Assembly: GCA_902767135.1 (NCBI GenBank)
Contig: CACXGE010000027.1
Span: 1 to 64,000, forward strand
DNA length: 64,000 nucleotides
Source of the DNA: an uncultured Lachnospiraceae bacterium
Lineage (GTDB): Bacteria; Bacillota; Clostridia; Lachnospirales; Lachnospiraceae
Direction: 5' to 3'
In this document: piece by piece, positions 37,919 to 44,858 of the stretch
Numbering within the stretch: position 1 is the first letter of the stretch
Layout of the letters: every line of letters starts with the position of its first letter
Translations under genes and position numbers: made by a program
Notes under the pieces: generated by a model
What the model was told of the DNA's origin: nothing
Database searches by the model: none
Seen by the model: only the letters and a program-made list of their open reading frames with translations

Positions 37919-40900
37919 ATGGAATACATCAAGGTAAGTAAAGGAAGAAGAAAAAAAATTTTGTCTGCAATGCTTGCGTTTACTGTAGGTTGCACTAACA
38001 TGGGAGTGAGCGGTTGTTTTGCAGGTCCGTTGGGAGATGAAAAGGAAATTTTAGAGGAAGCCTTGGTCGCAGAAAAAGTAATAGGGGCACAGAATTCTAC
38101 AGAGGATAAATTCACCTGGGACAATGCCACTGTATACTTTGCCCTGACAGACCGTTTTTATAATGGAAATGTCCAAAATGATCATTCCTACGGACGTTCT
38201 GTAGAAGAAGCAGATGCAGAAAATTATGCCACAAGAGTAGGCACTTTTCACGGCGGAGATTTGGCAGGGTTGACTTTGAAGTTGAAGGAAGGATATTTTG
38301 ATGATTTGGGTGTGAATGTCATATGGATATCCGCCCCGTATGAGAACTCCCACGGTGCTGTCTGTGGAGAGGGATTCAAATATTATGCGTATCATGGATG
38401 CTGGCCCTTGGACTTTTCACAGTTAGATGCCAATGTGGGTACTGAGGAAGAGATGGCAGAGTTTGTAAAAACAGCCCACCAACATGGAATCCGGGTGGTA
38501 TATGATGTGGTAATGAATAATGTAGGATATGCGGACCCGATTACTGTCAGTGAGTATGTAGGAGATGGTGCACTGACTTCCGATTGGAAAACGTTTTATT
38601 ACGGAATGGATGAAGAAGGTTACCGCTGGTATCACAATTACACTTCCGAGACAGAAGACGGCATTGCCATTTTAAATTCCGGCTCTAGTAGCTGGATAAG
38701 AAGCTGGTGGGGAACCGACTGGGTTCGCGCTGTTACCAGTAGGTTTCAGGGATATGAAGGAAATGAGAGCTATGTAGATAATCTGAAATGTTGTCTAAAT
38801 GGTCTTCCTGATATCCGGACAGAAGATGAATTTGATTATTCTATTCCTACAATTTTGAAGACAAAGTGGACCATAGAAGGTAATTACGGCACCAAAATGG
38901 AAGAATTAAACGGTTTTTTTGAAACATCGAATCTCCCAAAAAGAAATGTAAACTATGTCATTGCATGGCTGTCATCCTATGTAGAAAACTATGGAATTGA
39001 TGGATTTCGCTGTGATGCAGTAAAGTACGTGGAGCCAGAGCATTGGGCTACCTTAAAGGAAGTATGCAATGAGAGATTGCAGAAATGGAGAATGGCAGAA
39101 AAACAGAAAGAAAACCCGGATCCGGCCTGCAATTGGGATGAGAACTTCTGGATGGCAGGAGAAATTTATGGTTGGTCCGGTGGAAAAAATAGCTATCTTA
39201 CCTCGGGGGGATTTGACGCTTTAGGTAATTATGGTTTTCAGTCAAAGGCAGGGAAAACAGGAGCTGATTTGGAAACCACCTATGCAGACTATGCCAATAC
39301 AGTCAACAGCAATGCAAGTCAAGGGTATAATTTATTATCCTTTGTCTCATCTAACTCTGCGGGGTTGGGAGCTCTAGGATCGTACGATGGCACCTCAGTT
39401 TTCAAAAATACAGGTGCAGCTTTGTTGCTCTGTCCGGGAGCAGTTCAAATCTATTATGGCGATGAATATGGACGGGATGCTCAAGGTGCTTTGGATGAAC
39501 AGGGATGGAATTCCCAGATGGAGTTTGGCAAGAATACAGAACAGCTGACCAATTGGCAGAAAATTGGAAACTTCAGAAAGAATCATCCGGCTGTTGGTGC
39601 AGGTGCTCATACCATGTTGTCTAAAAGTGTGTATACTTTTTCCCGAACTTATCATGTAGGTGAATCGGACGAAGATAAGGTAATAGTAGCATTGCCTGTG
39701 GTGGCAGGAGAATACGATGTGAATGTGGGAACTGTCTTTGAAGATGGAGAGACAGTGAAAGATGCATACTCAGGAAAAACTTACATAGTTCAAGATGGAG
39801 TTATATCAGCAAGTTGTGATGATAATGGTGTGATTTTACTGGAAGCAGTAGAACCTTATGTGGCGGCAACTATCACCAGGGGAAGTTCACCTTTTGCAAC
39901 GGAAACCATTGAACTTACCTTGTCGGCAGCTGGAACCACAGAAAGCTACTACGCTATCAACGGGGAAGACAAGGTTGCTTATGATGATGGAGATAAGATT
40001 GAAATTGGTGCAGGTTCTGCCTATGATGAGATAACCAATGTTACCCTTTCGGCGAGAACTAATGATGGTTCATTTATAGAGCAGAGTTATATCTATATTA
40101 AGTGTTCAGAACCTGAGGTGGATTGTAGAACAGGTATCAGAGTGCTGAAGTCAGAATTTGCAGAGGCACCATATTGTTTTGCGTACATTGGTAATGCCAC
40201 AATTTTGAATGGGTCATGGCCTGGAAACAGGATGACTTCCCTGGGTGATTACTGGGTATTTATTCCAGATGCAGAGCAGGATTTTTCTTTTATTCTTTCG
40301 GATGGCACAGGTTGGCGGAGCCCTGAAGAAAGTCAACCGGGTTTAGAGACCCAAGGAAATACTTTGTTTACCAAGACTACAGGGAAAACCACACAGCTTG
40401 CGGGTAGTGCAGGAAGGGTGAATGTAAAATATGTAAATGAAGCTGGAGAGGAATTAAAGACTGGAGTGTACCGGATAGGTGGGGTGGGTGATACCTATGA
40501 GACCAGTGCTCCGAAAAGCATCAATGGGGCACGGTTGATTTACAGTTCTGGAAATACTACAGGTACTTTTACTGAGGAAACCATTGAAGTGATATATACA
40601 TACCAAGGGGGAAATGTGGCTACATCCACCCCGACGGTGACGAACACCCCAACTCCAACAGTGACGAACACCCTAACTCCGACGGTGACCAATACGCCAA
40701 CTCCAACGGTGACCAACACGCCCACCCCGACGGTGACTAATACGCCAATTCCAACGACTACAATGGCTCCAGAGGTAACGGAGGAGGTTGTGGTTACAGG
40801 AATTCCATCTGTAACGCCAGAGCTTGCAAAAGGAAAGATTATTTTGCATTGTTATAGTAAGGAAGGACAGCCAGTGATGGTATACCAGAACCGAAACGGA

Positions 40901-42106
40901 GTGGCGGATAGGGAATACATGGTGCAGATGTCCTATGAAGAGAATAATTGGTTTACCTGTACCATGGACCAGACGGATATGATGCAGGTGCGCTTTTACT
41001 GGGGAGATGGTGAGACTTCCACAGAGTGGTTTGAAGTAACCAATGGAGAATGGTGGTATTTAGACGAAATGACTCAGGAAAACTTACAGATAAAGACCCC
41101 GGATGCTACATTGACACCTACGATCACCGGTGGGGGAGAACTGACTCCAATGGTGACGCCCACTTTGGCGCCAACAGCAACCTTAACACCGACCGCGGAG
41201 CCAACTCCCACCTTGACCTCGAAGCCGGAGAGTACAGTAACTGTCACGAAAGCCATAAAACCTACAGCAAAGCCTGCCACTGTAAGCTATCGGGTAACTT
41301 ATCAGGGAAACGGTGGGAAAATTGGGAACGTAACATTAAAAACCGCCACCAAAAAGAAAAATGAAATTTTAGGAACTCTCCCTACACCAAAACGAAGTGG
41401 CTACCAGTTCTTAGGGTGGTATACGAGAAAGACAGGTGGAAGTAAGGTAAGTGGTCAGCTTAAAGTGCAGGGAAATTTAACTTTGTACGCTCAATGGCAA
41501 AAGAAGTTAGGAAAAACCAAGATTACTGTGACTGCTGATACCAAGCGTTCCTATAAAGTCAGCTTCAAAAAGGTGAAAGGTGCCAAAGGATATGAAGTCT
41601 ACCGTTCCACCAAGAAAAAGAGTGGATATAAAAAGATTGCTTCCCTTAGTTCAAAAAAGAGTAATTATGTGGATGAAAATCTGGTTAATAAAAAAACGTA
41701 TTACTACTATGTGTTGCCTTACCAGACAGTAAACGGTAAGAAATCCTATGGAGCAAAATCCAATGTAGTAAAGAAAAAATGCATTATGCGCCTAAACCAG
41801 CCGAAAATGGACCCGCCAGAGTACAATCCGATTACAAAACATCTTGACTTATCCTGGAAAAAGGTGGAAAATGCACAGTATTATAAAATATATTGTCAGC
41901 GTGGTGTAAAGGATGCCCAAGGTATCATACGATTAGGAGACAGTGTTTTCGTAAAGAAAATTACCAAGACAGGATGCAGTGTGGATGTGTCTAAGTATGA
42001 GACATCACAATATTGGTACCATTTCAGTGTGGTAGCTTGTACCAAAGATGGGAAAATAGAGATTATGTCAAGTCCTTCATCAGATAAATATGTTTTGGGA
42101 AGGTAG
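37919..42106 (+). CDS. Secreted MalS-like GH13 protein with starch-binding modules; catalytic site altered
   Basis: A protein of 1395 residues. The N-terminal signal (KVSKGRRKKILSAMLAFTVG) includes a possible lipobox VSGC. A GH13 barrel (about 60-590) resembles E. coli MalS in sequence (NYGIDGFRCDAVKYV, FWMAGEIYGW, CPGAVQIYYGDE). The nucleophile Asp366 and acid/base Glu415 are present, but region I reads DVVMNN (Asn201 for His), region II KY (Tyr370 for His) and region IV FVSSNSAG (Asn479-Ser480 for His-Asp). Then come a CBM26-like module (about 737-825), a MucBP-like domain (830-900), a TPTVTN linker, a second CBM26 (973-1060), a second linker, an InlB repeat (1122-1195) and two Fn3-like domains. 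It probably binds starch at the cell surface; hydrolysis is doubtful. Confidence 0.85.
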   Translation: MEYIKVSKGRRKKILSAMLAFTVGCTNMGVSGCFAGPLGDEKEILEEALVAEKVIGAQNSTEDKFTWDNATVYFALTDRFYNGNVQNDHSYGRSVEEADAENYATRVGTFHGGDLAGLTLKLKEGYFDDLGVNVIWISAPYENSHGAVCGEGFKYYAYHGCWPLDFSQLDANVGTEEEMAEFVKTAHQHGIRVVYDVVMNNVGYADPITVSEYVGDGALTSDWKTFYYGMDEEGYRWYHNYTSETEDGIAILNSGSSSWIRSWWGTDWVRAVTSRFQGYEGNESYVDNLKCCLNGLPDIRTEDEFDYSIPTILKTKWTIEGNYGTKMEELNGFFETSNLPKRNVNYVIAWLSSYVENYGIDGFRCDAVKYVEPEHWATLKEVCNERLQKWRMAEKQKENPDPACNWDENFWMAGEIYGWSGGKNSYLTSGGFDALGNYGFQSKAGKTGADLETTYADYANTVNSNASQGYNLLSFVSSNSAGLGALGSYDGTSVFKNTGAALLLCPGAVQIYYGDEYGRDAQGALDEQGWNSQMEFGKNTEQLTNWQKIGNFRKNHPAVGAGAHTMLSKSVYTFSRTYHVGESDEDKVIVALPVVAGEYDVNVGTVFEDGETVKDAYSGKTYIVQDGVISASCDDNGVILLEAVEPYVAATITRGSSPFATETIELTLSAAGTTESYYAINGEDKVAYDDGDKIEIGAGSAYDEITNVTLSARTNDGSFIEQSYIYIKCSEPEVDCRTGIRVLKSEFAEAPYCFAYIGNATILNGSWPGNRMTSLGDYWVFIPDAEQDFSFILSDGTGWRSPEESQPGLETQGNTLFTKTTGKTTQLAGSAGRVNVKYVNEAGEELKTGVYRIGGVGDTYETSAPKSINGARLIYSSGNTTGTFTEETIEVIYTYQGGNVATSTPTVTNTPTPTVTNTLTPTVTNTPTPTVTNTPTPTVTNTPIPTTTMAPEVTEEVVVTGIPSVTPELAKGKIILHCYSKEGQPVMVYQNRNGVADREYMVQMSYEENNWFTCTMDQTDMMQVRFYWGDGETSTEWFEVTNGEWWYLDEMTQENLQIKTPDATLTPTITGGGELTPMVTPTLAPTATLTPTAEPTPTLTSKPESTVTVTKAIKPTAKPATVSYRVTYQGNGGKIGNVTLKTATKKKNEILGTLPTPKRSGYQFLGWYTRKTGGSKVSGQLKVQGNLTLYAQWQKKLGKTKITVTADTKRSYKVSFKKVKGAKGYEVYRSTKKKSGYKKIASLSSKKSNYVDENLVNKKTYYYYVLPYQTVNGKKSYGAKSNVVKKKCIMRLNQPKMDPPEYNPITKHLDLSWKKVENAQYYKIYCQRGVKDAQGIIRLGDSVFVKKITKTGCSVDVSKYETSQYWYHFSVVACTKDGKIEIMSSPSSDKYVLGR
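40625..40744 (+). repeat. 24-bp tandem coding repeat (PxPTVTNT linker)
   Basis: Five consecutive 24-bp units encode (P/L)xPTVTNT in the linker between the MucBP-like domain and the second CBM26 of the GH13-like protein. Codons alternate between units (aac acc, aat acg, aac acg), as in the longer array at 43275. Confidence 0.85.
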
Positions 42107-42149: not shown

Positions 42150-44858
42150 ATGAAAAATAAAGTAATTGCAGTTTTTTTGTGTATGTGTGTGACAGGTGCC
42201 ACTTTCGGAGGCCAGTGTGAAGCTATAGCACAGGAATATGACGTGCAGGAGAAGGGTGTTTATGGATATGCAGATGGTGAACGTTTTACAGAACAGGGCA
42301 TAGAGTATCAGTACATTGCATCAAGTCAGAGCCTTAGGACCTACAGCTTTGAAAAATGTTCAGATGAGATTATTGACATTCCATCCTATGTGAATGGTTA
42401 TCCTGTTACGGAGATTCATTACTATGGTTATTTTCCAAGCACAGCTACAGCTGTAAACATTCCGTATACAGTTACTTATGTGAAAAGTAGTTTTTTGGGG
42501 TCAGGTTTACAAAATTATTATGTGGATAGCAACAATCAAAAGTATACTTCCAAAGATGGTGTGCTGTTCAGTAAGGATGGCACAGTGTTGTATGCCTACC
42601 CATACGGAAGAACGGATAAATCCTATAAAGTGCCGGAGGGCACAAAGAAACTTGCTTCCTGGTCAATTGAGAGTAAGGCCTTAGAAACTGTCAAAGTTCC
42701 GTACACCGTAAATGATATACGCAGAGCATTTACTATGGCAAATGGACTAAAGAACATAGAAGTTGACAGTGAAAACCAGGTGCTTAAATCTATTGATGGA
42801 GTAGTGTTCTCAAAATTTGGTGATACGATTGTTCGTGTACCAAATAATAAAAAGAATTTTACCTTTGCAAGTCAGGTATCGAATATTAAAGAGTATGCTT
42901 TTGAGTTCTGGCAAGGGGAAGAAATTGTAATTCCTGAGTCTGTAACAGAAATTGGGTTCAGCGCATTTGGAGGTAGTAGAATAAAAAAACTTACAATTGC
43001 AGGAAATCCTACATTGCAGGGAGCTATTTTTCAGAACTGCACTACGTTGGAAACTGTGGATTTGGGAAATAAAATACAATATATTAAATCTGGGTTGTTC
43101 TCAGGGTGTAGTAGTTTGAAACAGATGTATATTCCAGCTTCTGTTACAATTATAGAGCCAGATCTTGTGAATAGTAAATATGTAAGTCAGCTTACAATTT
43201 ATGGACCAGCAAATCAGACTGCATATAACTATGCTGTTGCTAATGGTATAAATTTTGTGGTTGGATATGGGTTACCAACTCCAACGGCAACCAACACGCC
43301 GACCCCAACAGCGACGAATACGCCAAGACCAACGGCAACCAACACGCCAAGACCAACAGCGACGAATACGCCAAGACCAACAGCAACCAACACGCCGAGA
43401 CCAACGGCGACGAATACGCCGAGACCAACAGCAACCAACACGCCGAGACCAACAGCGACGAATACACCAAGAGCAACAGCGACGAATACGCCAAGACCAA
43501 CGGCAACCAACACGCCAAGGCCAACAGCGACGAATACACCGATGACAACAGCGACGAACACGCTGATGCCAACGGTTACACGGGAACCGGAAGTGACAGA
43601 AATCCCTTTTGTAACGCCAGAACCTGAAGTGGGAAAGATTATCCTGCATTGCTATAGCAAGGGAGGACAGCCGGTAATGGTATACCAGAATCGGAACGGA
43701 GTAGAGGACAGGGAATACATGGTACAGATGTCCTATGAAGGAGATGATTGGTTTACTTGTACCATGGATAAGACAGAGAAGATGCAGGTACGCTTTTACT
43801 GGGATCTTGGCGAAACTTCCACAGAGTGGTTTGATGTAACCGATGGGGAATGGTGGTATTTAGATGAAATGACTCAGGAAAATTTACAGATAAAGATTCC
43901 GGAGGCTACATTGACCCCTGTTGTGACCAGAAAAGTGGAACCGACGTCAACGGTGACACCAACAGTAACGCCAACATTGACTCAGGCAGTGACACCAACC
44001 AAGGTGGTGAAACCTACAGCTACTCCAACCCCTGTTACTTACCAGGTAACCTATCAGGGAAATGGTGGGAAAATTGGAAATGTAACAATCAAGATAGTCA
44101 GCAAAAAGAAGGGTGAAATCTTAGGTACACTTTCTACACCTAAAAGAGACGGATATATATTTTTAGGATGGTATACGAAAAAGACAGGTGGAAATAGGGT
44201 AGATAGTCGGCTGAAAGTAAACGAAAATGCTACTCTGTATGCTCGATGGCAAAAGAAGCTAGATAAAACCAAGGTTACGGTAACGGCAGACAGCAAGCAT
44301 TCCTATAAGGTCAGCTTCAAGAAGGTAAAGGGTGCGAAGGGCTATGAAGTATATCGCTCTACAAAGAAAAACAGTGGATATAAAAAGATTGCTTCCTTAA
44401 GTTCAAAAAAGAGCAGCTATGTGGATGAAAATCTGACAAACGAAAAAACATATTACTATTATGTGTTGCCTTATCAGACAGTAAACGGAAAGAAGAATTA
44501 TGGAGCAAAATCAAATATAGTAAAGAAAAAATGTATTATCCGTTTGGAACAGCCTAAAATGAACCCACCAGTGTACAATTACATCACGAAACAGCTGGAC
44601 TTATCCTGGAAAAAAGTGGACAATGTCAAGTATTATAAGATATATTGCCAGCGTGGGGTGAAGGATGCCAGAGGAGTGATTCGCCTTGGCGATGGTGTTC
44701 TGGTAAAAAAAGTTACAAAGACAGAATACAGTCTGGATGTATCTGATTACCAGACATCTAAATATTGGTATCATTTCAGTGTGGTAGCCTGCACCAAAGA
44801 TGGAAAAGTAGAGATTATGTCAAGCCCTTCATCGGATAAATATGTTTTGGGAAGGTAA
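42150..44858 (+). CDS. Secreted leucine-rich-repeat protein with CBM26 starch-binding module
   Basis: A protein of 902 residues. Signal peptide about 1-27 ([17 protein letters not shown], cleavage near AIA-QE). Residues about 40-370 are BspA-type leucine-rich repeats ([43 protein letters not shown]). A 12-unit PRPTATNT linker spans 376-471. A CBM26 follows (about 496-585; [17 protein letters not shown]), then a second linker, an InlB repeat (about 628-700) and two Fn3-like domains to the end. From the CBM26 on it is nearly identical to the C-terminus of the preceding GH13-like protein. No enzyme domain is present, so it is most likely a starch-adhesion or scaffold protein. It starts 43 bp after that gene and may be co-transcribed. 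Confidence 0.85.
43275..43562 (+). repeat. 24-bp minisatellite, 12 in-frame units (PRPTATNT)
   Basis: Twelve 24-bp units code for (P)(R/T/M)(P/A/T)TATNT. Many alternate between two synonymous spellings (gcaaccaacacg and gcgacgaatacg), producing a partial 48-bp higher-order period. All frames on the opposite strand are open here purely because of the repeat. Confidence 0.95.

Follow-up and report, generated by a model that had tools for sequence, protein, structure and literature searches.

Non-catalytic members of GH13 are known from plants and animals, and a literature search revealed little on bacterial ones. The animal SLC3 proteins provide one GH13-like non-catalytic precedent. Plant ISOAMYLASE 2 (ISA2) is a non-catalytic GH13 paralogue that selection has maintained alongside an active one (PMC12510319), and R. 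bromii Sas20 is a non-catalytic surface protein for starch (PMC9112005); ISA2 and Sas20 demonstrate real roles for GH13 proteins that lack catalysis and for surface proteins that bind starch without cutting it. In the BmaN1 group of GH13, the third catalytic Asp is replaced, the nucleophile is a Lys and the stabilizer a His, and activity has been reported (PMC5347038). An aberrant GH13 site can accordingly keep some activity, which serves as a warning for the protein described here. Among the active enzymes, E. coli MalS (GH13_19, PDB 8im8) uses D460 as nucleophile, E503 as proton donor, and D565 as transition-state stabilizer (PMC10223318), and R. bromii Amy4 (PDB 9qf3) is an active amylase with a cohesin and a dockerin (PMC5814915).

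We analyzed a stretch of 64,000 nucleotides from an uncultured Lachnospiraceae bacterium (the window; assembly GCA_902767135.1, contig CACXGE010000027.1, positions 1 to 64,000). It contains a gene whose product, the window protein, is a GH13 protein of the MalS/Amy4 type (GH13_19-like) by sequence and fold. The evidence supports well its assignment as a bacterial GH13 pseudo-amylase, so far from a single genome. It differs from ISA2, which belongs to GH13_11, is a plant protein in complex with ISA1, and shows a loss that is conserved across its whole lineage, and also from Sas20, which has other binding domains, takes part in a cohesin–dockerin complex, and lacks a GH13 barrel. With the BmaN1 group the window protein shares the replaced third Asp; however, it falls outside the aberrant triad of that group, as Asp366 and Ser480 stand where BmaN1 has the Lys nucleophile and the His stabilizer.

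Domain layout and fold

The best PDB sequence matches of the window protein were the GH13 domain of Amy4 (phmmer E 2.8e-120), followed by MalS and a Klebsiella maltohexaose-forming amylase. NCBIfam alpha-amylase equivalog models gave E values down to 1e-128, yet these matches remained under the curated cut-offs. For the barrel, AlphaFold2 predicted an intact fold (mean pLDDT 85.6, pTM 0.90), and a fold search with this model gave Amy4 9qf3 as the closest structure (Z 38.0, rmsd 2.4, 539 residues), with MalS at Z 34.5. A preliminary description made from the sequence alone had proposed a MalS-like GH13 protein with an intact barrel; the sequence and fold matches confirm the family, and the model together with the fold match predicts the barrel to be intact. 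The order of domains, with the barrel followed by a C domain and GH13 followed by CBM26, is that of Amy4, whereas MalS has the same type of catalytic domain and a permuted C domain (PMC10223318). The features of the gene are compiled in Table 1.

Table 1. Features of the pseudo-amylase gene and its downstream neighbor (positions in the window; residue numbers refer to the window protein)
Feature	Position	Strand	Remarks
Whole gene, secreted multidomain pseudo-amylase	37919..42106	+	ATG start, 1395 aa, uninterrupted ORF
N-terminal signal sequence	37919..38023	+	Read from the sequence
GH13 barrel, MalS/Amy4 type	38117..39709	+	Residues 67-597 as searched; sequence and fold matches
C161 for the -1 stacking Tyr (YHGCW; Taka-amylase Tyr82 position)	38399..38401	+	Tyr in 85/86 relatives
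N201 (codon AAT) for the region I His	38519..38521	+	His in 86/86 relatives
R364 and nucleophile D366, kept	39008..39016	+	86/86 relatives
Y370 for the region II His	39026..39028	+	His in 83/86 relatives
Acid/base E415, kept	39161..39163	+	86/86 relatives
N479-S480 for the region IV His-Asp; third catalytic Asp gone	39353..39358	+	His-Asp in 86/86 relatives
D490 of GSYDG, candidate substitute acid	39386..39388	+	Inserted, low-confidence loop
N531 for the Arg after region IV	39509..39511	+	Arg invariant in 86/86 relatives
CBM26-like starch-binding module	40154..40324	+	Residues 746-802, under Pfam cut-off
MucBP domain	40418..40606	+	Residues 834-896, Pfam
Thr/Pro-rich linker, boundary of amylase part and LRR-type end	40607..40831	+	24-base tandem units
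C-terminal part common to the downstream LRR gene	40832..42103	+	All-beta domain, linker, List-Bact repeat, FN3-like pair
BspA-type LRR surface protein, neighbor with the same C-terminal end	42150..44858	+	902 aa

Pfam matches above cut-off were obtained for Alpha-amylase, MucBP, and the List-Bact repeat, and matches below it for CBM26 and the C-terminal FN3-like part. Of the two starch-binding modules previously regarded as intact, the first stands in part, as a sub-threshold match to CBM26 (PF16738, residues 746-802, E 3.6e-4, 21.0 bits versus a cut-off of 28.1); the second does not, giving no match in the Pfam search and no convincing relative in a sequence search of the PDB. As a consequence, glucan binding may be weak. 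The Pfam search revealed neither cohesin nor dockerin in the window protein, and the C-terminal part was modeled with low confidence (pLDDT 66.3).

The layout of a secreted CBM26-MucBP protein with the end of a surface protein points to an extracellular location. Near the N-terminus, VSGC (38006-38017, ending with C33) matches the lipobox pattern and is a candidate lipobox, and cleavage by signal peptidase I would also be possible. The intact paralogues apparently carry an ordinary signal peptide without the VSGC-type lipoprotein pattern of the window protein.

Active-site residues lost and kept

The window protein was aligned with 86 relatives, comprising 80 genome-contig loci and six paralogues from the genus (approximately 84 distinct sequences, as a few genes were named twice). 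Its motifs are DVVMNN (region I), FRCDAVKY (region II), AGEIYG (region III), and FVSSNSAG (region IV). In the alignment with MalS (PDB 8im8), D366, E415, and S480 correspond to D460, E503, and D565, respectively. Thus, the first two acids of the Asp/Glu/Asp triad of an active GH13 alpha-amylase are present and the third is S480, and its three conserved active-site His residues are N201, Y370, and N479 in the window protein. The kept nucleophile and acid/base had been read from the motifs beforehand, in agreement with the MalS alignment, and the loss of the third Asp and the three His residues, likewise proposed in the preliminary description, was verified by the 86 relatives. In contrast to the window protein, Amy4 has the usual His and Asp residues in the alignment. 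Three further changes had escaped notice: C161, N531, and an insertion of approximately five residues after region IV, which the relatives lack. N531 holds the position of what we take to be the subsite -2 Arg.

Compared with the 86 relatives, the window protein alone lacks all five active-site residues and the invariant Arg. It is changed in 11 of 95 near-invariant columns, every other sequence in four at most. By site, the changes affect 5 of 10 first-shell near-invariant columns versus 6 of 85 others (p = 0.0015), with the first-shell set derived from knowledge of Taka-amylase and chosen partly after the data were seen. Relative to every genus relative compared, H370Y corresponds to CAT to TAC, H479N to CAT to AAC, and D480S to GAT to TCT; since several losses take two or three base changes, they are unlikely to stem from chance or from a sequencing error. 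Judged by GH13 enzymology, normal hydrolysis is very likely lost, and the loss of the -1 Tyr and of the conserved Arg also speaks against tight binding of glucan in the cleft.

The Asp of GSYDG had been suggested as an acid that might occupy the region IV position. D490 is an unlikely replacement for the third Asp, as it lies ten residues past S480, beside the insertion and in a loop modeled with a pLDDT of approximately 56.

In a homologue from a Ruminococcus MAG (L127:6001-7419), Asn and Ser are found at the usual His and Tyr of YHGY, and the rest of the site is intact. Three Clostridium homologues (L085, L092, L101) carry Asn-Gln where region II has Lys-His, indicating that conservation of the region II His within the family has exceptions.

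Four congeners, 397 family genomes (E 1e-120), and the 80 genome-contig loci yielded no orthologue that carries the losses of the window protein; these collections may omit its nearest conspecific genomes. The active-site loss is therefore known from one MAG only, and the conservation of the loss across species that characterizes ISA2 was not seen in the sampled genomes. The viral contigs searched contained no relative of the window protein. In a crude motif scan of the other GH13 genes of the same genome, His-Asp was present in most, and several did not fit the simple pattern. Automatic annotation would name the gene an alpha-amylase, and GH13 gene counts in gut starch degraders can take in non-cutting members.

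Paralogues, locus, and C-terminal end

The genome (2.86 Mb, 171 contigs) encodes two intact paralogues that were not part of the preliminary description, C69 (1013 aa, 68% identical) and C134 (58% identical). C69 shares the signal peptide, GH13, CBM26, and MucBP with the window protein, whereas its catalytic residues are all intact and it terminates with a Y_Y_Y Ig-like domain instead of the LRR-type end. Its gene adjoins sugar ABC transporter genes and a malQ-like gene in a maltodextrin locus, the gene names in these loci being our own reading of the sequences, and intact homologues in the congeners G001 and G004 lie beside the same genes. The counterpart of C69 in G003 is also intact (77% identical to C69). 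The window copy sits apart from the maltodextrin locus between rng and rplU; in G001, G002, and G004, rng is followed by a Nudix-type gene, and in G003 by the contig end. The tree grouped the window copy with C69 and the C69 counterpart from G003, with poor resolution of the node (support 43). The named records of related sequences are Lachnospiraceae MAGs, several of them from goat gut. Together with an intact paralogue from its own genome, the window copy would form a before-and-after pair for the conversion of an enzyme barrel into a binding or scaffold protein.

The resemblance of the window protein to its amylase paralogues extends up to the MucBP domain and the Thr/Pro linker. From residue 972 onward, it shows 80% amino acid identity to the terminal part of the BspA-LRR protein encoded next to it, a common C-terminus that had not been recognized before; a weaker C-terminal match was obtained with a 1720-aa LRR protein from another place in the genome. 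For the LRR part of the neighbor, no close homologue was found in the sister species, and a literature search on BspA-LRR plus amylase gave nothing relevant.

Amylase genes repeatedly adjoin BspA-type LRR genes in the genus (G000:C133, G000:C134, G001:C41, G002:C41, G003:C37, G003:C74, and G004:C19, with G000 denoting the window's own genome), and the LRR protein G000:C161 carries a CBM26 module. The neighboring LRR gene contains a long Thr/Pro-coding tandem repeat (43281-43563, 24-base unit, approximately 11 copies), and a shorter tandem repeat of the same period is present in the pseudo-amylase gene (40634-40756).

Selection and possible function

In a codon model, omega was 0.098 for the window branch versus 0.062 for the background, a difference that was not significant (0.9 log-likelihood units). 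An omega of 1 on the window branch was rejected (lnL -12608.9 versus -12631.1; 22 log-likelihood units), with the branch value averaging the times before and after the loss because synonymous sites are near saturation. The C-terminal pair formed by the window gene and the LRR gene is less saturated and gave dN 0.121, dS 0.97, and omega 0.125. As both omega values are low, the gene is most likely kept for some function. The loss of catalytic residues in a fold and gene under purifying selection is that expected of a pseudoenzyme, where omega has to be taken as a whole-branch average. A pseudo-enzyme, as suggested at the outset, is the best reading and is strengthened by the purifying selection.

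With moderate confidence, we propose that a MalS/Amy4-type alpha-amylase was duplicated and that the copy became a non-catalytic surface protein, recruited for glucan binding or as a scaffold. The intact closest paralogue is in the maltodextrin locus and the copy between rng and rplU. The copy has its C-terminal end in common with the BspA-LRR surface protein next to it and has lost the -1 subsite (three His, third Asp, and stacking Tyr) together with the conserved Arg, and its frame and most of the barrel have stayed under purifying selection. Starch hydrolysis at a useful rate would be gone. The product, which would be extracellular and probably located on the surface, could bind or position alpha-glucan via the CBM26-like module and any surface sites left on the barrel, or act as a scaffold, beside the LRR neighbor and the intact amylases of the genome. 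The architecture suggests such a surface role, and since selection kept the copy, its task is probably to bind starch or to hold a complex together, and not to cut. The kept nucleophile and acid/base are not needed by a pure scaffold and count against this explanation. A function as a sensor, named as an option in the preliminary description, may also be considered. We regard as tentative the idea that the amylase barrel is a surface glucan receptor which, together with the LRR neighbor, would correspond in a Gram-positive bacterium to the starch-binding proteins without catalysis that belong to the Sus system in Bacteroides.

It appears rather unlikely that the window protein has remained enzymatically active with an altered reaction, an option also named in the preliminary description, or with a very slow one. 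In this case, D366 and E415 would form and release the glucosyl-enzyme in spite of the missing third Asp, possibly in a transferase reaction or with an unusual substrate. The nucleophile, the acid/base, and the neighboring Arg are kept, and BmaN1 with its aberrant GH13 site was reported to be active on starch, but its mechanism was left open by the authors (PMC5347038), and in the window protein five residues of the -1 subsite and the conserved Arg are missing together.

The MucBP domain and the C-terminal end common to the BspA-LRR protein would also suit an adhesin unrelated to glucan, in which the barrel would be no more than a stable spacer, and MucBP and the LRR-type end would bind host mucin or other cells. 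We consider this improbable: the intact amylase paralogues carry MucBP too, as do R. bromii pullulanases (PMC5814915), so the domain is no mark of a new role, and the CBM26-like module is retained. There is little likelihood, too, that the copy is inactivated and becoming a pseudogene. Its occurrence in one genome only, the 11 changed near-invariant columns, and the finding that no relative has an amylase at the rng-rplU locus would fit such decay; however, 1395 codons have remained open at a saturated dS, and the omega values of the branch and of the C-terminal end, with omega = 1 rejected for the branch, are opposed to it.

A wrong joining of two MAG genes in the Thr/Pro-rich repeat is very improbable although the junction lies inside a tandem-repeat linker of an assembly of 171 contigs, because the whole gene and the LRR gene have no exact match longer than 24 bases; for the linker, the longest one elsewhere in the sequences compared is 16 bases, the frame is intact, and the catalytic losses are located far from the junction.
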